DNA of 39,386 nucleotides from Candidatus Agathobaculum pullistercoris (GTDB lineage Bacteria; Bacillota; Clostridia; Oscillospirales; Butyricicoccaceae): contig DXFS01000001.1 in NCBI GenBank assembly GCA_019114345.1, positions 1 to 39,386 of the forward strand, written 5' to 3'. The position numbers and the translations under genes were made by a program. Positions 7,150-18,315 of this stretch are shown here, in pieces; position 1 is the first letter of the stretch; every line of letters begins with the position of its first letter. The notes under the pieces are model-generated. The model saw only the letters and a list, made by a program, of their open reading frames with translations, searched no databases and was not told the origin of the DNA.

Positions 7150-7971
7150 TTATCCTCTCTCAGCCAGAATCCGGTCGATTGCCGCCGCCACACCGTCCTC
7201 GGCGTTCGTTACTGTTTCCCGCCTGCAGACTGCTTTGACGGCATCCGTGGCGTTGCCCATTGCGATAGGGAGCGCCACTGCGCGCAGCATCTCGAGGTCG
7301 TTTTCGCTGTCCCCGATCGCGGCAGCGCAGGACAGGCCGGTGCCGAGTTCGCGGCACAGCATGCCAAGCGCCGTTCCCTTGTCCGCGCCCGGTGTGACCA
7401 CCTCGATATTATCCGGGGCTGAACTCATCACCCGCACCCCCGGGATGTCCGCTATCTGGCTGCGGATCATGCTGATCATAACCGGATCGTTGCTTCGCGC
7501 GAAGATCTTGTCCACCGACAAGCGGTGATCCGCAATATATTCCGCTACCGAGGGGACCACCTGCTTGACAGCGAGATAGCCCTCGTTGGACTTATATTTG
7601 CCGAACTCCATATCATCGTAGGGTGTGATGAGCAGCGTTTCTCCTACATAGATCATAGCTGTCACACCGATGCGCTCCACCACCGCAGCAGCGCGCACAG
7701 CCGGTTCCCACGGCATGGATATGCGCATGGTGCACTGCCCCCGCGATACGCTGGAAATCGATGCGCCGCCCGAAGTGACCATCAGGTCATCTGCACCGAG
7801 CGCTATGGCAAAATCACGCGCCTCCCCGCAGATACGGCCGGTCGATACTACAACATACAGCCCTGCCCCACGTGCACGGCGTACTGCTTCCCGCGTGGCC
7901 TCGGACACGGTATTGTCCGGTGTAAGTGCTGTACCGTCAAGATCCAGCGCGATCAGATCGATTTTCTGCAT
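7150..7971 (-). CDS. Cof-type HAD-IIB phosphatase
   Basis: A 273-residue haloacid-dehalogenase-superfamily phosphatase, likely acting on small phosphorylated metabolites such as sugar phosphates or flavin precursors; the substrate cannot be told from sequence. Motif I is DLDGTAL at residues 10-16 and includes the nucleophile and acid/base aspartates. Motif II is in VVSTGR, motif III is the lysine in GADKGTAL, and motif IV is the metal-binding GDSENDLEML. A type IIB cap lies between motifs II and III. The ATG at 7971 follows AGGGGG; an in-frame ATG seven codons upstream has none. A minus-strand promoter at 8007-8035 drives it, back to back with the phage-cassette promoter. Confidence 0.9.
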   Translation of the reverse strand: MQKIDLIALDLDGTALTPDNTVSEATREAVRRARGAGLYVVVSTGRICGEARDFAIALGADDLMVTSGGASISSVSRGQCTMRISMPWEPAVRAAAVVERIGVTAMIYVGETLLITPYDDMEFGKYKSNEGYLAVKQVVPSVAEYIADHRLSVDKIFARSNDPVMISMIRSQIADIPGVRVMSSAPDNIEVVTPGADKGTALGMLCRELGTGLSCAAAIGDSENDLEMLRAVALPIAMGNATDAVKAVCRRETVTNAEDGVAAAIDRILAERG

Positions 7972-8006
7972 TCTGTTTCCCCCTGTAAGCAATCACATTC
8001 CTATTC

Positions 8007-8048: not shown

Positions 8049-8062
8049 CGAACATTTGTTCT
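8049..8062. promoter_or_regulatory. LexA-type SOS box at the phage cassette promoter
   Basis: CGAACATTTGTTCT contains the palindrome GAAC-N4-GTTC, the core of the Gram-positive LexA (DinR) operator. It matches CGAACATATGTTCG at 12 of 14 positions. Its last base is the first base of the -35 hexamer at 8062-8067, so a bound repressor would block polymerase. I found no other GAAC-N4-GTTC palindrome while reading promoter regions in this window. Function is inferred from sequence and position. Confidence 0.7.
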
Positions 8063-8090
8063 TGACTTTTTCGCATCCTGCTCCTATTCT
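8062..8090 (+). promoter_or_regulatory. promoter of the phage head cassette
   Basis: TTGACT (8062-8067), a spacer of exactly 17 bases and TATTCT (8085-8090) form a strong sigma-A type promoter (five of six matches each). It lies about 54 bases upstream of the first cassette gene. It is the only clear plus-strand promoter seen ahead of the block. Confidence 0.7.
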
Positions 8091-8143
8091 ATGCCTCACG
8101 GGAGAAGTAAGCAAATCCACCTTCCAAAGGAGGCGAGGCCATT

Positions 8144-8353
8144 GTGCAAAAAAAGCACCATCCGGAAGAACTGATCCGGATGCTGTACGAAATCGCAGAC
8201 GATGCCGAAGCTCCCGCCAACAGCCGGCTGACTGCGATCAAAGAAATCCTCGACCGGACAGTCGGCAAGGGGATGCTGTTGGACGGCGAGGAAAAAGCAC
8301 CCGAGCCGGTCGAAATCGTGTTCCGGATCGTAGACGATACGAATTCCCCGTGA
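8144..8353 (+). CDS. small terminase-like DNA packaging protein
   Basis: A 69-residue protein (QKKHHPEELIRMLYEIADDA, then SRLTAIKEILDRTVGK) that looks fully helical. Its position directly before the large terminase is that of the DNA-recognition subunit. Small terminases are usually over 120 residues, so this may be a minimal form holding mainly the DNA-binding helices. The start is GTG at 8144 after AAAGGAGG. Its TGA overlaps the GTG of the large terminase (GTGA), which implies translational coupling. The assignment rests mainly on context. Confidence 0.6.
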   Translation: MQKKHHPEELIRMLYEIADDAEAPANSRLTAIKEILDRTVGKGMLLDGEEKAPEPVEIVFRIVDDTNSP

Positions 8354-9648
8354 CGCGGCGGCAGGCGGCGTTTATCCAGTCGGATGCGTTTGAAACGCTG
8401 TTCGGCGGCGCGGCGGGCGGCGGTAAAAGCCACGGACAGCTGCTGGATGCCCTGCGGTTTGCAGTGGTCTATCCCGGCTCGCGGCAGCTCATGCTGCGGC
8501 GCACCATGCCCGAACTTGAGCGCTCACTTGTTCCGGCATCACTGCGGCTATATCCGCAGAGCATTGCCAGCTACAAGGTCAGCGATCACCTGTGGCAGTT
8601 TGTGAATGGCTCTGCGCTAGAGTTCGGCTACTGCGACGCGGAAAGCGACGTGACAAAATACCAATCCGCTGAGTATGATGTGATACGGTTTGACGAGCTG
8701 ACACACTTTACGGAAAGCCAGTTCACCTACCTGCTCTCGCGCGTACGCGGCACAAATGGTTTCCCTAAGCAGGTCAAATCGACGACCAACCCAGGCGGGG
8801 TCGGCCACCAGTGGGTCAAGACACGGTATATCGATCCTGCGCCGCCCGACATGGTAGCCGAATACGACGGCGGAACGCGTATTTTCCTGCCCGCCAGGCT
8901 ATCTGACAACCCGTTTTTGCAACGAGCAGATAAAGGCTACGAGAAACGGTTGCGACTGCTCTCGCCGCACGACCGCAAGGCATTGCTCGACGGTGTATGG
9001 GAGCTGAACGAGGGGCAGTATTTCAGCGAGTTCTCCGTACCGCTGCACGTTACCCCGCCCTATGTGGTCCCCAAGCACTGGCGGCGGTACCTGACGATCG
9101 ACTATGGATTGGATATGCTCGCCGCGCTCTGGATCGCGCAAAGCCCGGATGGGTACAGCGTAGCATACAGAGAGTTATATCGTCCCGGATTGATTATCTC
9201 CGAGGCTGCAGCGGCAATCCTGTCCTGCGAGCCGTCAGGCGAGCACATCGACTGCCGTCTCGCCCCGCCCGACCTGTGGAACCGGCGGCAGGAAACCGGC
9301 AAAAGCGCGGTAGAGCTGTTCGCGGACTGCGGACTGGATTTCGACAAAAGCAGCAACGAGCGTGTCGCCGGGTGGCTCGCGCTGCACGAGCTGCTCGCCC
9401 CGCGGAGAGATGAGCATGGCGAAGTGCGGCCCAAGCTGACGATCTTCAATACCTGCCGCAACCTGATCCGCACCCTGCCCGCCCTGCAGCACGATGCCCG
9501 CAACCCATCCGATGTGGCGAACACGCCGCACGAGTTGACGCACGCGCCAGACGCGCTGCGCGGGTATGCGGCAACCATATACGAGCCGCCCGCACCGGTG
9601 CAGCCAACCGCATACGACTGCGAAATAGGGGAGTTTTTGGCGTACTGA
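8350..9648 (+). CDS. terL: phage terminase large subunit
   Basis: The 432-residue motor and nuclease that cuts concatemeric DNA and pumps it into a procapsid. The N-terminal ATPase has Walker A GGAAGGGKS at residues 19-27 and a Walker B region VIRFDELTHF near 113. A VKSTTNPGGVGHQWVK coupling segment follows. The C-terminal RNase H-like nuclease begins near 245 with RYLTIDYGLDMLAALW, and a later PDLWNRRQETGKSAVELFADCGL segment is typical of the nuclease half. The GTG at 8350 overlaps the previous stop; a longer open frame back to 8056 crosses the promoter and the small gene and is rejected. Both functional domains look intact. Confidence 0.93.
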   Translation: MTRRQAAFIQSDAFETLFGGAAGGGKSHGQLLDALRFAVVYPGSRQLMLRRTMPELERSLVPASLRLYPQSIASYKVSDHLWQFVNGSALEFGYCDAESDVTKYQSAEYDVIRFDELTHFTESQFTYLLSRVRGTNGFPKQVKSTTNPGGVGHQWVKTRYIDPAPPDMVAEYDGGTRIFLPARLSDNPFLQRADKGYEKRLRLLSPHDRKALLDGVWELNEGQYFSEFSVPLHVTPPYVVPKHWRRYLTIDYGLDMLAALWIAQSPDGYSVAYRELYRPGLIISEAAAAILSCEPSGEHIDCRLAPPDLWNRRQETGKSAVELFADCGLDFDKSSNERVAGWLALHELLAPRRDEHGEVRPKLTIFNTCRNLIRTLPALQHDARNPSDVANTPHELTHAPDALRGYAATIYEPPAPVQPTAYDCEIGEFLAY

Positions 9649-9682
9649 AGGGCAGGCGCTGCGCAACAAGAAGGAGGAACCA

Positions 9683-9874
9683 ATGACTATTTTACTTTAC
9701 TGCATCGGCGCAGTACTGTTGGTGCTGACCGGAGCGGTCGTGTCTGGCGGACTGCAGCTACCGCTGCGGCAGCCTAAGGGCAGCGCGCCGGCCGAGACGC
9801 CGGAGGACGTGCTCAGCCGCGACCTCGCTGCGCTGATGGCGTATGGACGGGAGGAGGATGACCATGCGGTTTGA
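9683..9874 (+). CDS. small single-pass membrane peptide in the phage cassette
   Basis: A 63-residue protein with one N-terminal hydrophobic helix (ILLYCIGAVLLVLTGAVVSG). An acidic tail (TPEDVLSRDLAALMAYGREEDD) follows. An AAGGAGG site is well placed before the ATG. It overlaps the portal gene start by 11 bases. Similar short membrane peptides occur between terminase and portal genes in phages. A holin role is possible but unsupported, because one helix next to head genes is weak evidence and no endolysin is present. Confidence 0.65.
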   Translation: MTILLYCIGAVLLVLTGAVVSGGLQLPLRQPKGSAPAETPEDVLSRDLAALMAYGREEDDHAV

Positions 9875-11429
9875 TCCCTCACCCGCCGCGATCTGGCGCA
9901 AGTACGAGCGCGACCGCGATTACAAGCGCTCGATCGGTCTGTACGACCGGGTGCGGCGCAACGAGGCATTTTACCTCGGCCGCCAGTGGGAAGGACTCAA
10001 GGTCCAGTCGCTCGACCCACTGATCTTCAATGTGCTGCGGCGCTGCGTCAACCTGTTCGTGTCCATGCTGGTGTCGGACGATGTAGCAGTGCACGCCCAG
10101 CCGTTCGATATGGATGACAAAGGGCGCAAAACCGCCCGCATCCTTGAGCGCGCCTTCGCATCCGCAATCGAGCGGTCAGGCGTCAAGGCGCTCGGACGGC
10201 CGCTGCTCAAAAACGCATGTGTGGACGGCGACGCGTGCTTCTACATCCACTTCGACCCTGCGCTCGAAACCGGACAGGCAGTCAAAGGCGATATTGCGGT
10301 CGAGCTGATCGATTCGACTAACATCTGCTTCGGCAACCCAGCCTGCGACGAGGTACAGCGCCAGCCGTATCTGATCATCGCCATGCGGCGCGATGTGGAC
10401 GAGGTCCGGCAGGAAGCCAAAGAAAACGGCATGGGCGCGGACGAGGTCGAAGCCATTGTGCCGGATGACAACAGCGACTATCTGCGCTACCGGTTAAACG
10501 GCGAAAACGACCGCGTGACCGTGCTGTTACACATGCGCAAAACCGAAAACGGCGTTTCGTTCTGCAAGACCACGCGCACTGCGACTGTCATGCGTGAAAA
10601 GGAGCTGCCATACCGGTATTATCCGGTTACACACCTGTGCTGGAACCGCGTGCGCGGCTCGTGCCACGGCGAAAGCCCGCTGACCGAGGCGATCCCCAAC
10701 CAGATCGCAATCAACAAGCTGTATTCCATGTATGTGCAGTGCATCAAGCAGGTGGCCTTCCCCAAGATCATCTACGACATGACCCGCTTTCCGAACGGGT
10801 GGTCGAACGACGTGGGCAAGGCAGTCGGCATGCGCGGCAATCCGAACGAGGCGATTGCGACCGCGTTCAAGGCGCCGGACATCTCCTCGCAGGTGCTCGG
10901 CTTACTCAAACAGATGATGACCGACACCGCCGAGCTGATGGGCGCGAGCGAGGCCGCGCTCGGCACGGTCAACCCTGACAACACCTCGGCGATCGTGGCG
11001 GTGCAGAATGCGACCGCCGCCCCGCTCGAACTGACCAAGATGGAGTTCTACCGTTTCACCGAGGACTGGGCGCGCATCTTCCTCGACCTAATGGGCGCGC
11101 ACTACGGCGTGCGCACGGTTGTGGCCGCGGACGAGACCGGCGAGGAGCCGGTCCGGCAGTCCTTTGACTTCTCTGCGCTCGCCGGGCAGGACATGCGCCT
11201 GCAGGTGGATGTTGGAGCGGCAAGCTACTGGTCCGAGACCATGCAGACCATGACCAACGACCATCTGCTTGAGAGCGGCGTCATCACCGACCCGCTGATT
11301 TATCTGGAAAACGTGCCTGATTATCAGGTGCGCGGTAAAAACGACCTGCTGCACGCACTCCGCATGCAGCGCCAGCAGCAAAAGGAGGAAAATGCAAATG
11401 CAAACCAAGCCCAAGCAGAACAGCAGTAA
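9864..11429 (+). CDS. phage portal protein
   Basis: A 521-residue portal: the dodecameric ring at one capsid vertex through which DNA passes. The N-terminus (DPSPAAIWRKYERDRDYKRS, then NEAFYLGRQW) and the SLDPLIFNVLRRCVNLFVSML segment are typical of podovirus-like portals. So is the GESPLTEAIPNQIAINKLYS stretch before the clip and stem. The ATG at 9864 has GGGAGGAGG six bases upstream; ATGs at 9843 and 9858 are less well placed. The C-terminus is rich in glutamine and asparagine (QQQKEENANANQAQAEQQ). It overlaps the scaffold-like gene by 32 bases. No truncation is visible. Confidence 0.9.
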   Translation: MRFDPSPAAIWRKYERDRDYKRSIGLYDRVRRNEAFYLGRQWEGLKVQSLDPLIFNVLRRCVNLFVSMLVSDDVAVHAQPFDMDDKGRKTARILERAFASAIERSGVKALGRPLLKNACVDGDACFYIHFDPALETGQAVKGDIAVELIDSTNICFGNPACDEVQRQPYLIIAMRRDVDEVRQEAKENGMGADEVEAIVPDDNSDYLRYRLNGENDRVTVLLHMRKTENGVSFCKTTRTATVMREKELPYRYYPVTHLCWNRVRGSCHGESPLTEAIPNQIAINKLYSMYVQCIKQVAFPKIIYDMTRFPNGWSNDVGKAVGMRGNPNEAIATAFKAPDISSQVLGLLKQMMTDTAELMGASEAALGTVNPDNTSAIVAVQNATAAPLELTKMEFYRFTEDWARIFLDLMGAHYGVRTVVAADETGEEPVRQSFDFSALAGQDMRLQVDVGAASYWSETMQTMTNDHLLESGVITDPLIYLENVPDYQVRGKNDLLHALRMQRQQQKEENANANQAQAEQQ

Positions 11430-11928
11430 GCAGCCTGCCGCCGTACAGCCGCAGGCCCGGCAGATGCCCCCGGCGGAGGTGAATCCGTTCGCACCCGGCG
11501 GCGCGGCCCCGCAGGAAGCACAGGCGGGCACACAGCAGACCTTTCCCGTACCGGTGGACGGGCAGATGGTCGAGCTGACGCTGGACGAGCTGATCCAGGC
11601 GGCGAGCCTCGGCCTGTCCAAGCAGAACGCCTATGTGCGCCGCAACCGTGCGGCAAACGGTATGCCGAACGGTCAGATCTACGCAGCGTTCGTCGAGGAA
11701 TACCCGGATATCAAACCTGAGGATATCCCGCAGCAGGTATGGGAATGGGCGCAGCAGGAGGGATCGCTCGTCTCCGCCTACCGCAAATGGGAGATCCTCG
11801 AACTCAAGGATGAACTGGCAGCGATGGAGATGAACCAGAAAAACCAGCGCGCAGCGGTCGGCCCGGCGCAAACGGACGGCGAGCCGGCGGGCGTTGACCC
11901 GGTGACTCTGGCGCTGCTCGGCAGATAA
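11398..11928 (+). CDS. probable phage scaffolding protein
   Basis: A 176-residue protein lying between portal and capsid genes, where scaffold or scaffold-protease genes sit. The first 45 residues are rich in Q, P and A and probably disordered. The middle (VDGQMVELTLDELIQAASLGLS) is compact, and the C-terminal half is charged and helical (YRKWEILELKDELAAMEMNQ), as expected for an assembly scaffold. No protease motif is visible. The ATG at 11398 fits the GGAGG spacing (nine bases) better than the ATG at 11392 (three bases). Function is inferred from position and composition. Confidence 0.55.
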   Translation: MQTKPKQNSSKQPAAVQPQARQMPPAEVNPFAPGGAAPQEAQAGTQQTFPVPVDGQMVELTLDELIQAASLGLSKQNAYVRRNRAANGMPNGQIYAAFVEEYPDIKPEDIPQQVWEWAQQEGSLVSAYRKWEILELKDELAAMEMNQKNQRAAVGPAQTDGEPAGVDPVTLALLGR

Positions 11929-11935
11929 AAGCCCT

Positions 11936-12101
11936 CCAGGGGGTATCCAATACCCCCTGGATACGAAAAAAGTTCCTTTGAAACTTTTTTCGATACCCCC
12001 GGCATCCGCGCCGCAGCGGCGCGGGGTCGCGGTGAAATTCCGACGCGCATGTCGCCGGAATTTCCAGATGAAATGTCGCTGCGCTCCCTTAACAAGCGAC
12101 A
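11936..12101. repeat. array of five hairpins between scaffold and capsid genes
   Basis: Five successive inverted repeats fill the gap. They are CCAGGGGGTA/TACCCCCTGG (11936-11960), CGAAAAAAGTT/AACTTTTTTCG (11964-11992), CCGCGCCGC/GCGGCGCGG (12006-12024), GAAATTCCG/CGGAATTTC (12034-12064) and TGTCGCT/AGCGACA (12074-12101). The fourth has a 13-base loop that is the reverse complement of GCGACATGCGCGT, the loop found in host arrays near 18195 and 36352. The order of the first three mirrors the array at 29637-29746 read on its minus strand. So this is a host-family element inside the phage block. It may also tune capsid gene expression. Confidence 0.8.
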
Positions 12102-12130
12102 AATACACTTTATAACAGGAGGTACCCATT

Positions 12131-13171
12131 ATGGCTATCAATCTTGCAACCAAATATTCCGACCAGATCGCCGAGGTGTTCACGCGCGCATCCTTCATCA
12201 AGGGAAAGACCGCGGAGACCTTTGACCTGACCGGCGTCAAGACCCTCAAGGTCTACACCCCGATCACGGTTGAGGAGGTCGACTACGACCGTGACGGCGG
12301 TCTCGCCCGTTACGGCGACGTGACCGAGATGCAGGATGTCGTGCAGGAGCTGACCATGACGCAGGACAAGGCGTTCACGCTCACGATCGACAAGGGCAAC
12401 AACCTTGACCAGAACCTGGTCAAGAACGCGGCCGACATGCTGCGCCTGCAGCTGAACGAAAAGTCCACCCCCGCAGCGGACAAGTACGCGTTCAAGCGAT
12501 TTGTGACCATGGCAGGCAATATCGTCGAAAGCACCGCCAAGCCGACCAAGTCCGACATCATCAGCAAGATCGCGGATGCGTCCCAGGCGCTGGATGACGC
12601 GCTCGTGCCGGACGACAACCGCTACATCTACCTGACCAGCGAAATGTACAAGCTGGTGTGCACCTCGGACGAGTTCGCGGGCGTAGACGTGCTTGCGCGC
12701 CAGTCGATTGCCAAGGGCGTTTGCGGCGAGGTATTCGGCATGAACGTAGTGCGCGTACCGAAATCCTACCTGCCGGAAAATGTATACTTTCTTGTCACGC
12801 ACAAGGATTCGGTACTCATGCCGTACAAGATCGCGGACGCCAAGGTGCATGAGGACCCTGTCGGCGTTTCCGGTGCGCTGATCGAAGGCCGCCACTACTA
12901 CGATGCCTATGTGCTCGGCGCCAAGTGCGGCGGTGTGTATGCGCTGGTTGCAGCGGATTCCGTAACCGACTCCCCGTCCATTGCAGAAGGGGTGATCACT
13001 ATCCCGACCGACGCCACCGTGCGTTATACGCTGGACGGCTCGGATCCGCGCTACTCGGATTCCGCCAAGGACTACACCGCCTCGGCCAAGCTGACCGCAG
13101 AAGAGGGCTGCAAGATCCGCGCGTACGCGGTCAAGACCGGGCTGTATCCCTCCCCTGTTATTGAAGGCTGA
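12131..13171 (+). CDS. phage major capsid protein with C-terminal Ig-like decoration domain
   Basis: A 346-residue coat protein placed after the scaffold gene. The first 285 residues (AINLATKYSDQIAEVFTRAS, VYTPITVEEVDYDRDGGLARYG, YIYLTSEMYKLV) resemble capsid proteins of small Bacillota phages with an HK97-type fold. Residues about 295-346 contain VRYTLDGSDPRYS and KIRAYAVKTGLYPSPV, the pattern of the chitobiase/hexosaminidase C-terminal (CHB_HEX_C) beta-sandwich. Such Ig-like domains often decorate capsid surfaces and may bind glycans. An AGGAGG site precedes the ATG, and a hairpin at 13187-13210 follows the stop. Confidence 0.85.
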   Translation: MAINLATKYSDQIAEVFTRASFIKGKTAETFDLTGVKTLKVYTPITVEEVDYDRDGGLARYGDVTEMQDVVQELTMTQDKAFTLTIDKGNNLDQNLVKNAADMLRLQLNEKSTPAADKYAFKRFVTMAGNIVESTAKPTKSDIISKIADASQALDDALVPDDNRYIYLTSEMYKLVCTSDEFAGVDVLARQSIAKGVCGEVFGMNVVRVPKSYLPENVYFLVTHKDSVLMPYKIADAKVHEDPVGVSGALIEGRHYYDAYVLGAKCGGVYALVAADSVTDSPSIAEGVITIPTDATVRYTLDGSDPRYSDSAKDYTASAKLTAEEGCKIRAYAVKTGLYPSPVIEG

Positions 13172-13186
13172 TCCCAAACCGTGCAG

Positions 13187-13210
13187 AGGGAAGGGTACAT
13201 TCCCTTCCCT
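13187..13210 (+). terminator. hairpin after the capsid gene, possible attenuator
   Basis: AGGGAAGGG (13187-13195) pairs perfectly with CCCTTCCCT (13202-13210) around TACATT. No T-run follows, so it is more likely an mRNA end-stabiliser or partial attenuator that raises capsid over adaptor expression. Confidence 0.45.
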
Positions 13211-13258
13211 GCTGCCGGCTCTCTGCTTATCTACCTTATACCATAAAGGAGGAATCCC

Positions 13259-13627
13259 ATGACCGGAACCGAATGCTTCCGCGCTGCGCTGAACCTGCTC
13301 TCGGAAACGCCGGACAGCGGCACCTATTACGAGCAGTTTGCACTGGGCGCACTCAACCAGCTGCTGGTCAACAGCCTGCGCGAGATCAATGCCGAGCGCG
13401 TTTTCCGCGCAGAGCAGCCTTTTGACGCACCGCCGCGCATGACGGCGCTGACCGAGGAGATCCCGGCAGGCGACTGGCTGACACGCGAATGTTTTCCATA
13501 CGGGCTGGCAGCGCTGCTTGTTGCAGATGACGACAAGGCCAAATTCAACTGGGCTGCCACCGAATACACCGACCGGCTGCTGCGCCACTGTCCGGCGCAG
13601 TTTACCGGCATACAGGAGATGGTCTGA
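13259..13627 (+). CDS. putative head-tail adaptor protein
   Basis: A 122-residue protein with TECFRAALNLLSETPDSGTY, then EQFALGALNQLLVNSLREIN and LTEEIPAGDWLTRECFPYGLAALLVADDD. The helical layout with a central YGLAALLVADDD helix is like head-completion adaptors that extend the portal ring. Its place after the capsid gene and before the large hub-like gene fits the adaptor slot of short-tailed phages. AAAGGAGG precedes the ATG. Its TGA shares one base with the next ATG (TGATG), so translation is probably coupled. I do not recognise a named family with certainty. Confidence 0.6.
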   Translation: MTGTECFRAALNLLSETPDSGTYYEQFALGALNQLLVNSLREINAERVFRAEQPFDAPPRMTALTEEIPAGDWLTRECFPYGLAALLVADDDKAKFNWAATEYTDRLLRHCPAQFTGIQEMV

Positions 13628-15447
13628 TGCGCGCCTACCAGTTTCCGCAGACCGAAATCGAGCGCATGACGGTTGTCAGCCGCTTCGGCGGCGTGGACTT
13701 CCGCACGCACCCGACCAAGGTCTCGCTTTCCCGTTCGCCCGACATGCAGAACATGATCTGCGACCAGAATGACTTTCTGGTCAAACGCACGGGGTGGAAG
13801 ACACAGTATACCTATACCGCGCCCATTTACGGGCTGTTCCTCATGCCGGACGGTTCGGGGTTTGCCGTCCATGCGGGGACCAAACTGTACTTCCGCCCCG
13901 TCGAGGGCACGCAGGCCGAGCTGTGCTCGGACATGAATGAGGACTTTTCCCAGTCCTTTGTAATGAGCGGCGTGCTTTATCTTCTGGATGGACAGACCTA
14001 CCGCGCCATCCGCCGCAACGAGGATGACGACGGCTGGGAGGCCGTTAAGGTGCAGGACATCGCCTATGTGCCGACCACAACCATTTCCGCCGCTCCCACC
14101 GGCGGCGGCACAAGTTATGAGGACGTCAATCTGCTGACGCCCAAACGCATCAATACCTTCATCGGCAATGGCTCAGCCACTCAGTTCCAGGTGGATGCCA
14201 AGGATCTGGATGATACGGCTGTCACCGCCGAGGTAGGCGGCACGGCGGTTACAGTTTCTTCAGTCAACCGCACGACCGGACTGGTGACGCTTGCCTCCGC
14301 TCCGGCCAATGGGAACGGTTTGGCCAATGTCTCTATTGCTTTTTCCAAAACCGTATCCGGCTACGCGGATAAGATCAACAAATGCCGGATCGCCGGACTG
14401 TACGGCGGCAAAAACGACACGCGCGTGTTTCTCGCCGGCAATCCGGACGAGCCGGACTGCGACTGGCAGAGCGGGCTGTACGATCCCACCTATTTCCCCG
14501 ATCTGGGTTATACCCGTATGGGGACGGACGCGTCCGCAATCGTCGGCTACCTCAAGCAGTACGAAAGCCAGCTCGTCATCAAATCAGGCGGCGCGCAGGA
14601 ATCGACCAGTTATCTGCGCTCCTACCTGATGGCGGACGATGGGACCGCGCTCTATCCGCTTAAGCAGGGTACGCAGGGTGAAGGCGCGGTCGCGCCGCGC
14701 AGCTTTGCCACGCTGAACGACCTGCCGCTGTTCCTGTCCGCGCGCGGGGTGCAGGGCGTGTTCGGCACAGCGGTTGCCGAGCAGCGCACCATCCGGTCGG
14801 TATCGGATGCGATTGTCCCCAAACTTGCGGCAGAACAAGGGCTGAAGGATGCCTGTGCCATCGTGTACCAAAGCAAGTATTACCTCGCGGTGAACGGGCA
14901 TGTCTACGTAGCGGACAGCGCGCTGACCGAGGAAAACGGCGATCCTGCGTGGTTCTACTGGACGGATGTGCCGGCACAGTGTCTGGCTGTGCTGGATGGG
15001 CGGCTGTGGTTCGGCACGGCGGACGGCAAGGTATGCCGCTTCGCCGATGCAGCCGAGGATCATGCATACAGCGATGACGAGGCCGCCATTGACGCCTACT
15101 GGCGCACCCCTACCCTGCCGCTGGACGACTGGGGGCGTGTCAAAACCGTTCGCGACGTGGTACCCACGCTCATGCCATATTCACGTTCGGGCGCGACCGT
15201 GCAGTACGAGAACGAGAACGGACAGACGCTTGCGCTCTCGCGCAACATGGATCTGTTTTCCTTCAAGACGCTGGACTTCTCCCGTTTTTCGTTCCGCTGC
15301 ATCCCGGGCGCGGTCAGCTACCGCACGCGCTGGCGGCAGCACCGGATGCCCCTGTTCGCTGTGCGCATCGGCAACAACCGGCCGGACGAGCCATTCGGCC
15401 TGCTGGCGCTCACCATCCGCTGGACACAGGGCCAGCCTGTCATCTGA
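13627..15447 (+). CDS. large phage structural protein, probable tail hub/nozzle
   Basis: A 606-residue protein that I do not match to a named family with certainty. The start (GGVDFRTHPTKVSLSRSPDM, then QNMICDQNDFLVKRTGWKTQY) resembles proteins that list early residues, then a 'no-frills' beta-propeller, as in P22 gp10 and T7 gp12-type tail hubs. Repeated short beta motifs follow: GLFLMPDGSGFAVHAGTKLYF, LYLLDGQTYRAIRR, YYLAVNGHVYVADS, LAVLDGRLWFGTADGKVCRF. These look like propeller blades. A central insert near 165-235 (VTAEVGGTAVTVSSVNRTTG) looks like a separate beta domain. The fold and role are inference from pattern and gene order. Confidence 0.6.
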   Translation: MRAYQFPQTEIERMTVVSRFGGVDFRTHPTKVSLSRSPDMQNMICDQNDFLVKRTGWKTQYTYTAPIYGLFLMPDGSGFAVHAGTKLYFRPVEGTQAELCSDMNEDFSQSFVMSGVLYLLDGQTYRAIRRNEDDDGWEAVKVQDIAYVPTTTISAAPTGGGTSYEDVNLLTPKRINTFIGNGSATQFQVDAKDLDDTAVTAEVGGTAVTVSSVNRTTGLVTLASAPANGNGLANVSIAFSKTVSGYADKINKCRIAGLYGGKNDTRVFLAGNPDEPDCDWQSGLYDPTYFPDLGYTRMGTDASAIVGYLKQYESQLVIKSGGAQESTSYLRSYLMADDGTALYPLKQGTQGEGAVAPRSFATLNDLPLFLSARGVQGVFGTAVAEQRTIRSVSDAIVPKLAAEQGLKDACAIVYQSKYYLAVNGHVYVADSALTEENGDPAWFYWTDVPAQCLAVLDGRLWFGTADGKVCRFADAAEDHAYSDDEAAIDAYWRTPTLPLDDWGRVKTVRDVVPTLMPYSRSGATVQYENENGQTLALSRNMDLFSFKTLDFSRFSFRCIPGAVSYRTRWRQHRMPLFAVRIGNNRPDEPFGLLALTIRWTQGQPVI

Positions 15448-15465
15448 GAAAGGAGGGACAACCCT

Positions 15466-16464
15466 TTGGCTAAAAACTATAAGGATAATTTCGACTATTC
15501 TGAGGCGATCGCCAACACGCAGAACGCTGCCGAACGGCAGCAGCTGCTCACGGAACGGCAAAACAAGATCAACGCCGAGGGTCTTGCCGGGAAGGTCGCC
15601 TCGAATGAGGCTGTGTCTACCTGGAACGGCGACTACCGCCCCTATTCGGTATCCTCCGGCGGCGGGGGCGGTGGTGGCAGCAGCGGCGGGAGCGGCAGCA
15701 GTTCATCCGTCTCCTCCGCAATCGCCGAACTGTATGCCGCCGCGGAATCCGCGCGTCTGCAGCGTTTCGAGGCCGCCCGCGAACGCATCCAGCAGCAGCT
15801 TCAGAGCAATCTGTCCTCGATCGAAAGCGACTATACTGCCGGTATGACGCAGACTGACATCAACGCACGGCAGTCCGCGATTTCCAATGAGGAAAAGCTG
15901 GCGGCGCTCGGCCTGAATATGGGCGCACGCAGCGCGGCTGCAACCTCGGGCGCCGCAGAGTCCAGCCGCATCGCGCTGGACAACCAGTACCGCAGCGATT
16001 TGAATGCGCTTGGCCAGGCCCGCCTGACTGCGCGTGCGGCAGCACGCGACGCAGCCGCCAATCAGGAAGCTGCCATTGAAGGGCAGTATTACAGTGCAGC
16101 GGAAAACGCGGCTCTGCAGCAGGCGCAGATGCAGCTTGCGCAGCTGAATTCAGACCGCGATTACAGTATCTCACTCGCCGGCCTGACCGGATTCCTGAAC
16201 GGCACACCTACCATGGCATGGTACAATTACCAGCTCAGCGCGGATACGGCTGCAAACAATGCGGCGATGCAGGCAATCCAGCTGTCCAACAGCAGCCAGG
16301 CGCAGGCTTATGAGCAGGCGCTGAACCGCTGGAAGACCAGCGGCTACGTGCAGGCGGGCGACGCGGCCATCCTTGGCGTACCTGCCGGCACGCCGACCGC
16401 GGATGTCAGCTACCAGAACGCCAATCTGGCGCTGCAGCAGTGGAAGGCCGGATACTGGTATTGA
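15466..16464 (+). CDS. putative ejection-type internal virion protein with Gly/Ser hinge
   Basis: A 332-residue helical protein. After about 60 charged residues there is a flexible glycine/serine hinge at about 64-85 (GGGGGGG, then SSGGSGSSSS). Long alanine- and glutamine-rich helices run to the end (AELYAAAESARLQRFEAARE, ENAALQQAQMQLAQLNSDRD). That composition and the terminal position fit DNA-ejection proteins of short-tailed phages, which leave the capsid ahead of the genome. The start is TTG at 15466 after AAAGGAGGG. A strong terminator follows at 16504-16536. No tail fibre or spike gene follows it, so host recognition is unexplained. Confidence 0.5.
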   Translation: MAKNYKDNFDYSEAIANTQNAAERQQLLTERQNKINAEGLAGKVASNEAVSTWNGDYRPYSVSSGGGGGGGSSGGSGSSSSVSSAIAELYAAAESARLQRFEAARERIQQQLQSNLSSIESDYTAGMTQTDINARQSAISNEEKLAALGLNMGARSAAATSGAAESSRIALDNQYRSDLNALGQARLTARAAARDAAANQEAAIEGQYYSAAENAALQQAQMQLAQLNSDRDYSISLAGLTGFLNGTPTMAWYNYQLSADTAANNAAMQAIQLSNSSQAQAYEQALNRWKTSGYVQAGDAAILGVPAGTPTADVSYQNANLALQQWKAGYWY

Positions 16465-16503
16465 CGCATTCTCTAAAACATGCGCCTTTTCCATGGTAAT
16501 CAA

Positions 16504-16536
16504 AAAAGCTGCTCACCAATGCGGTGAGCAGCTTTT
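16504..16536. terminator. bidirectional terminator between phage cassette and eno
   Basis: AAAAGCTGCTCACC (16504-16517) pairs perfectly with GGTGAGCAGCTTTT (16523-16536) around AATGC. The plus strand ends in TTTTACTATGTGTTTTT and the minus strand in TTTTTTGATT. It can therefore stop both the cassette transcript and the eno transcript. It closes the cassette as a self-contained unit. Confidence 0.9.

Positions 16537-16552: not shown

Positions 16553-18315
<1,763 letters not shown>

Follow-up and report, generated by a model that had tools for sequence, protein, structure and literature searches.

Among the genes of Candidatus Agathobaculum pullistercoris (Butyricicoccaceae, Oscillospirales) a cassette of phage-type structural genes is found, which raises the question what these genes do in a bacterial chromosome. 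The cassette lies on contig DXFS01000001.1 (assembly GCA_019114345.1; draft genome 77% complete), whose 39,386 bases are called the window here. Between positions 8144 and 16464, nine intact plus-strand open reading frames (ORFs; genes g1 to g9) sit among minus-strand host genes, as a preliminary description of the window had noted. They are bordered by HAD (7150–7992) on the left and eno (16553–17872) on the right, both on the minus strand and named by Pfam. The cassette probably encodes a domesticated, SOS-inducible particle of the gene transfer agent (GTA) type, with a dedicated activator that is itself SOS-induced. Domestication is well supported; the function, comprising induction, packaging, lysis and transfer, we infer from sequence comparisons.

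Conservation, Selection and Descent

The genus Agathobaculum was represented by 25 genomes including the window's own, and the family sample comprised 87 genomes. The portal protein is matched at 83–100% in 23 of the 25 genus genomes. The capsid protein is matched in all 24 other genomes of the genus, at 87–97% in 22 of them (one split match reaching up to 99%); G011 has a 50% match and G024 a weak one. Elsewhere in the family, the portal is present in 11 of 12 genomes of genus g10 (59–62%), in both genomes of genus g12 and in one of seven of genus g9. Furthermore, the cassette was found in cultured type strains, among them Agathobaculum desmolans ATCC 43058 and A. butyriciproducens DSM 100391. 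Comparison of the HAD-eno interval across relatives, which the preliminary description had proposed as a check, revealed that cassette and promoter box are conserved. The left flank (ftsK, uppP or HAD) is kept in all 19 loci reaching it, and 15 of 21 loci have eno as right neighbour. The loci are syntenic, and the 20 direct-repeat families listed (of 49) include no att-like bracket around the cassette, which speaks against a recent prophage remnant.

The frames are open across 24 genus loci, contig ends apart, with stops noted only at match starts or near the C-terminus. Ratios of nonsynonymous to synonymous substitution rates (dN/dS) were determined for the window and 23 of the 24 genus loci, dropping pairs with undefined dS or with 100 sites or fewer. 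The medians are 0.137 for terL, 0.111 for the portal, 0.183 for the scaffold, 0.090 for the capsid, 0.174 for gene g7, 0.142 for the nozzle and 0.160 for gene g9. These seven values are similar to those of the host neighbours ftsK (0.162), uppP (0.163) and HAD (0.140). Selection on the cassette, as proposed before, is borne out by these low ratios (0.09–0.18) together with open frames and synteny in relatives.

Trees of the cassette and of its flank were compared for 17 taxa, the window plus 16 loci, of which three lack HAD or uppP. They have 9 of 14 splits in common (mean 0.27 and maximum 3 in 1000 label shuffles), and the patristic distances correlate with r 0.91 and a slope of 0.90. This is the long-term vertical inheritance under purifying selection that characterizes GTAs, with five of the 14 splits differing.

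Outside the genus, inspection of four loci from three further genera showed a stand-alone cassette in each. In three genomes of two other genera (L062, L063 and L057) it adjoins the same gene of 624–625 amino acids (aa), a DUF4914 gene in L063. Since ftsK is located near the cassette in L063 and L057, both of genus g12, one ancestral site for the cassettes of genera g1 and g12 is suggested. The stand-alone cassette L065 of genus g10 occupies a different site.

Probable Control by the SOS Response

The motif CGAACATTTGTTCT occurs exactly once in the window, at 8049–8062; two more sites with three mismatches correspond to chance level. It overlaps a sigma-A-type promoter (TTGACT-N17-TATTCT, 8062–8090, plus strand), and a GAAC-N4-GTTC core within 350 bp upstream of terL was present in only 7 of 2000 shuffles. 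Box, -35 region and -10 can be aligned in all 20 upstream regions, 13 of which carry the strict core. The lexA gene of the organism (PF01726) has CGAACGCATGTTCT 27 bp upstream of its ORF, and the same box type fronts rarA and a Y-family polymerase (Pfam) as well as a sigma-like operon described below. Across nine genomes, GAACAWWTGTTY is matched 55 times in the forward and 12 times in the reversed control orientation. An operator of the organism's own LexA type thus overlaps the cassette promoter, judged by sequence match, and LexA would repress the cassette directly at this box. The SOS-type control proposed earlier is strengthened by these results.

The preliminary description also spoke of one strong promoter. 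The promoter-like site is conserved; its score of 9/12 is shared by nine sites in 12.5 kb (shuffles 4.7). With this many such sites, promoter strength rests on conservation. The terminator hairpin closing the cassette (16504–16536, 14-pair stem) is one of 20 terminator-like sites (shuffles 11.1), with T-runs on both strands by eye. In other genera the box lies in the -35/-10 spacer (L063 and L057) or 3' of the -10 (L062), and each of these boxes is rare (7 to 10 of 2000 shuffles).

A conserved upstream motif, ATACCGCA...TTGCAAG, was considered as an activator site and rejected. It reads as the minus-strand HAD promoter, and in L038 and L054, which lack HAD, it has changed or disappeared. In five further loci (L153, L155, L162, L164 and L168) a conserved SOS box is found between two genes, an unexplained candidate for the SOS regulon. 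The pair behind the box is membrane/SLOG-like, coding for a SLOG/DUF1273-like protein and a membrane protein of the YihY type.

An Unlinked Operon as Candidate Activator

A second locus contains an operon of a 78-aa protein without family match (ORF78) and a protein consisting of sigma region 4 only (Sigma70_r4_2, 1.6e-14). An SOS box beside spoIID was seen in six loci (L123, L154, L156, L161, L165 and L170), and in five of them it lies directly 3' of the -10 of the divergent ORF78/sigma operon. In the sixth, L170 of G002, the box is kept and the operon is gone. A LexA-type box is present at the operon in all six genus loci read, L191 included. Because the box persists in L170, spoIID may itself be under SOS control. 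Its candidacy as an SOS-boxed lysis gene was dropped, as the box suits the divergent operon better, L170 notwithstanding. Homologous ORF78/sigma pairs are located at other chromosomal sites in genera g10 and g12 and in G044.

Carriers of the cassette were defined by a portal match of 59% or more, which excludes the related stand-alone cassettes of genera g4 (46–49%) and g9 (38–40%). Strong matches to the ORF78 profile (E≤1e-28) were obtained in 31 of the 87 family genomes, all of them carriers (31/37 versus 0/50 non-carriers). The sigma gene (E≤4e-9) is likewise found in 31 of 37 carriers and in none of the 50 others, and 30 genomes have both genes. Carriers without strong ORF78 are G000, G002, G007, G057, G108 and G109, of which G000 and G109 are drafts of 77 and 65% completeness; the sigma match of G007 is partial and in another context. 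Beyond the family, weak ORF78 matches were seen in 16 genomes, none of which was hit by the single portal protein. From this co-distribution we infer that the pair is a dedicated activator of the cassette. GafA, the activator of the Rhodobacter capsulatus GTA (RcGTA), binds DNA through sigma-like regions, and in Hyphomicrobiales it is encoded by two separate genes (PMC9638019); by this analogy an activator role may be assigned to ORF78/sigma.

Particle Proteins and Predicted DNA Packaging

All cassette genes lie on the plus strand. Gene g2 (8296–9648) encodes the large terminase TerL according to family scans (phrog_979 2e-47, Terminase_6N 3e-11); a start at 8056 was replaced by one near 8296, estimated from relatives. 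Gene g4 (9843–11429) codes for a P22-type portal (Pfam 2e-15, phrog_156 3e-27), whose profile retrieved none of the solved structures at E≤0.01. The major capsid protein is encoded by gene g6 (12131–13171; phrog_422 6e-38) and has a C-terminal Fn3_assoc domain in addition. This Fn3-associated/chitobiase-like domain may be exposed on the particle, where it could bind glycans. Capsids of family f19 are shorter (273–277 aa).

The putative small terminase (TerS), scaffold, adaptor and last protein gave weak or no family matches. Gene g5 (11392–11928; phrog_14606, of unknown function, 2e-4) is by position the probable scaffold, and gene g7 (13259–13627), without family match and 122 aa long in all 22 genus loci covering it, by position the probable head-tail adaptor. 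Gene g3 (9683–9874) encodes 63 aa with a hydrophobic N-terminus by eye; a small ORF between terL and portal is present in related prophages, too.

Gene g8 (13627–15447) matches phrog_3287 (3e-26), and its AlphaFold2 model (pLDDT 89) retrieved the Pa223 tail, P22 gp10, Sf6 and T7 gp12 with Foldseek (E 4e-19 to 5e-10). A sequence profile retrieves the same Pa223 chain at 0.0014. Based on this modeled fold, g8 is a podoviral tail nozzle of the P22 gp10/T7 gp12 type. Furthermore, a lone gene with a tail-fibre N-terminus was seen by inspection among host genes, unlinked to the cassette, in eight relatives (four of the genus, four of genus g10), and all four scanned match phrog_14469 tail fiber (5e-13 to 5e-15). 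Weak fibre-profile matches in G047, G099, G111, G112, G113 and G114 are outside this count. The term "head-only" used in the preliminary description therefore no longer fits. For gene g9 (15466–16464; 332 aa), the AlphaFold2 model (pLDDT 64) displays a long helical hairpin, and no viral fold matched at E≤0.001; it may be an ejection or internal protein. Three fibre-like genes of genus g10 (L253-L255 of L248-L255) lie a few kb from a clpB-like gene, and so do the cassettes L072 and L074 of genus g4.

Gene g1 (8144–8353; 69 aa) is the putative TerS (phrog_10899 terminase small subunit, E 0.006), and it is 69–71 aa long in all 20 loci. In three prophages that share the head module, TerS has 162–197 aa, and the two that were scanned both contain an N-terminal helix-turn-helix (HTH) domain, HTH_23 (7e-10, 9e-9). 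Neither HTH_23 nor any other Pfam family was found in g1, which by eye resembles the C-terminal part of the prophage TerS with a shared motif. The promoter position leaves little space for a longer g1. If g1 is the TerS, this is a small terminase without N-terminal DNA-binding domain. The RcGTA TerS also lacks the N-terminal HTH, a trait which its authors propose as GTA-defining in the accessible part of their report (PMC6854486).

Relatives in the Order and Among Viruses

The portal profile detects 134 of 394 genomes of the order at E≤1e-20, mostly with one hit per genome; 30 hits belong to family f19 and 20 to f16, as hit counts without per-family sample size. Of twenty further loci retrieved, the six from f19 (L208-L213) look stand-alone by inspection with the arrangement terL-portal-capsid-nozzle, and L212 and L213 have common flanking genes. 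In most of these six, a small holin-like membrane ORF follows by eye. Such stand-alone cassettes in the order fit the GTA described in Faecalibacterium (FpGTA), compared by description and not by sequence. Prophages with the same head module occur in the family, and L227 looks like a prophage. Among 50,697 named phage records, 14 match the portal, the best at 28%. The profile further retrieved 375 viral contigs, and the best 80 of these 375 reach at most 44% except three at 59–60%; a viral scan giving 0 relatives reaches close relatives only.

Proposed Mechanism and Alternative Explanations

A mainly vertically inherited, host-domesticated phage operon would make small podovirus-like particles of capsid, portal, adaptor and nozzle after DNA damage, once LexA no longer represses the promoter. 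In the genus, LexA would also repress the unlinked ORF78/sigma operon, the proposed activator. Since the putative TerS is without DNA-recognition domain, TerL is expected to package host DNA into the heads without sequence specificity, in line with what has been proposed for the Rhodobacter GTA. Genes for fibre and lysis functions would lie elsewhere.

A killing or protein-delivery particle like PBSX, formed in response to DNA damage and possibly containing host DNA but transferring no genes, would follow the same logic of domestication and SOS control, and the small, unlinked fibre-like gene would suit it. However, tailocins are long-tailed and the nozzle is of the short-tailed type, and purifying selection on TerL and portal is better explained by packaging, so that we regard such a particle as unlikely. 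For a capsid-encoding satellite (cf-PICI-like), a helper phage would supply fibres and lysis. The locus has structural genes with no recognised lysis or spike gene, and prophages of the family share the head module; both agree with this idea, which the preliminary description had raised as "capsid-borrowing satellite". Nevertheless, no satellite module (integrase, regulation/replication) was recognised among the ORFs of the locus, inheritance is mostly vertical at a mostly fixed site, and the cassette has its own nozzle and a putative TerS without recognition domain; a satellite is thus very improbable. Neither integrase, repressor, replication nor lysis genes were recognised in the ORF list of the locus, with family scans covering the nine cassette genes and four neighbours; the earlier statement that they are absent holds in this sense and not for every ORF. 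The locus is therefore a phage-derived structural cluster without recognised integrase or replication genes, as are, by inspection, those of other genera. The lack of these genes, together with one broken related copy (L057), might also indicate a decaying prophage remnant that is widespread through an old insertion only. Open frames across the genus, dN/dS values like those of host neighbours, the conserved promoter and box and the co-distributed ORF78/sigma operon all contradict decay, which we hold to be the least credible explanation.

The ORF78/sigma operon could also be an unrelated SOS pair that matches the cassette by shared ancestry only. The Fisher test for co-distribution (p 6e-18) was run with thresholds set after seeing the gap and is uncorrected for phylogeny, and exceptions exist in the carriers G002, G057 and G108 as well as in weak ORF78 matches (1e-7) in the non-carriers G011 and G112. 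In contrast, no strong ORF78 or sigma match is present in G011, G024, G103 and six genus g9 congeners of G044, none of them reaching a portal match of 59%. These within-genus contrasts disfavour ancestry alone, and the operon is found at different chromosomal sites in different genera. An unrelated pair is thus doubtful, without being negligible.

Several observations weigh against a GTA-type particle with a dedicated activator. Besides the limits of the Fisher test, ORF78/sigma is not strictly required, being absent in the well-completed carriers G002, G057 and G108, and profile searches found neither this operon nor the fibre-like gene in the window's own genome, a draft of 77% completeness. 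Outside the genus, a LexA-core box is present at 3 of 10 ORF78/sigma operons read (L183, L186 and L188), with none upstream in the other seven, and no LexA core was found upstream of the two genus g10 cassettes examined. Even within the aligned set, 7 of 20 cassette boxes are CAAACATTTGTTCT, with a core mismatch (CAAAC) and a weaker -35. No lysis gene was recognised at the locus or beside the SOS boxes read, a genome-wide lysis search not having been made.

The assignment of g1 as TerS relies on position and the match at E 0.006, and since the prophage-like L227 has a TerS of 119 aa also without evident HTH, the HTH loss is suggestive and not proof. Genes g1 (0.32) and g3 (0.37) have higher dN/dS values, and constraint on eno (0.03) and gpmI (0.10) is stronger than on most cassette genes. 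Six of 21 loci have a different right flank, without eno, so that this border has changed in some. Some of the five conflicting splits are well supported, so that some exchange of the cassette between species is possible. Finally, the cassette L057 of G047 has a split capsid gene and a truncated gene g9. L057 keeps two LexA-core boxes, and in G047 ORF78 is present without a strong sigma match. In L042 (16452-19273), additional genes, apparently not of phage origin, occupy some 2.8 kb between gene g9 and eno.

Comparison With Known Systems

PBSX of Bacillus subtilis is long-tailed and has different genes, and RcGTA is of the long-tailed type. P22/T7-type podoviruses resemble the cassette in portal family and nozzle fold; they differ in that the closest named-phage portal is the 28% match and that no genome-propagation genes are seen in the cassette. 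The closest likeness in described anatomy, not in aligned sequences, is to FpGTA, for which particles and packaged DNA have been observed (Borodovich et al., 2026; PMC12946183). According to the accessible part of this account, FpGTA stems from an Oscillospirales gut host and has a podovirus-like 10.5 kb structural operon without replication genes, encoding a TerS without obvious DNA-binding domain, TerL, portal, scaffold and capsid; it is genus-wide (12 of 12 genomes), with unlinked fibre and lysis genes. By description, the same set of TerS, TerL, portal, scaffold, capsid and short-tail proteins is found here, scaffold and TerS by position, and homologous portals occur in order-mates. Together with vertical descent and a putative TerS without HTH, this supports the GTA-like character suggested earlier. 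In contrast to FpGTA, the cassette's host belongs to another family, and the LexA-type box and the unlinked SOS sigma-type operon found here are not reported in that part of the account, where SOS induction of GTAs comes up in general terms only (PMC12946183). FpGTA further has an operon II with holin/endolysin, for which no counterpart was found within the limits of the lysis search given above.

In what is accessible of the respective reports, RcGTA shares the TerS without HTH, accessory loci elsewhere, the sigma-like activator GafA and an involvement of LexA (PMC6854486, PMC9638019). LexA there seems to act via CckA, whereas it would probably act at the operon promoter of the cassette. In Caulobacter, the LexA-like repressor RogA controls the activator genes of CcGTA (PMC9632790); RogA is a separate protein without key cleavage residues, in contrast to the operator for the host LexA at the cassette promoter. 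PBSX is likewise a domesticated Gram-positive phage particle with host DNA (PMC12946183), and differs by its tailocin activity.

Significance

GTAs are hard to find outside Alphaproteobacteria, and among GTA-like systems of Gram-positive bacteria only PBSX precedes FpGTA (PMC12946183). In the literature as far as accessible, no pairing of "gene transfer agent" with Agathobaculum was found, and with Butyricicoccus only a probiotic review; FpGTA appears in a single paper. What appears to be new here is an SOS-wired GTA variant with a candidate activator, genus-wide and partly family-wide.

More tentatively, and at somewhat less than even chance, a three-part system can be envisaged, in which LexA holds the particle operon and the two-gene sigma-type activator, with the fibre at a third locus. 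It would be one branch of an order-wide family of podovirus-like cassettes in Oscillospirales, FpGTA included, and DNA damage in these gut butyrate producers would release particles with genome fragments.

Owing to the presence in cultured type strains, the trigger of a GTA, its activation and the question of DNA repair versus gene flow in the gut become testable. If the proposal is true, exposure of these bacteria to DNA-damaging drugs would be expected to increase their gene flow.

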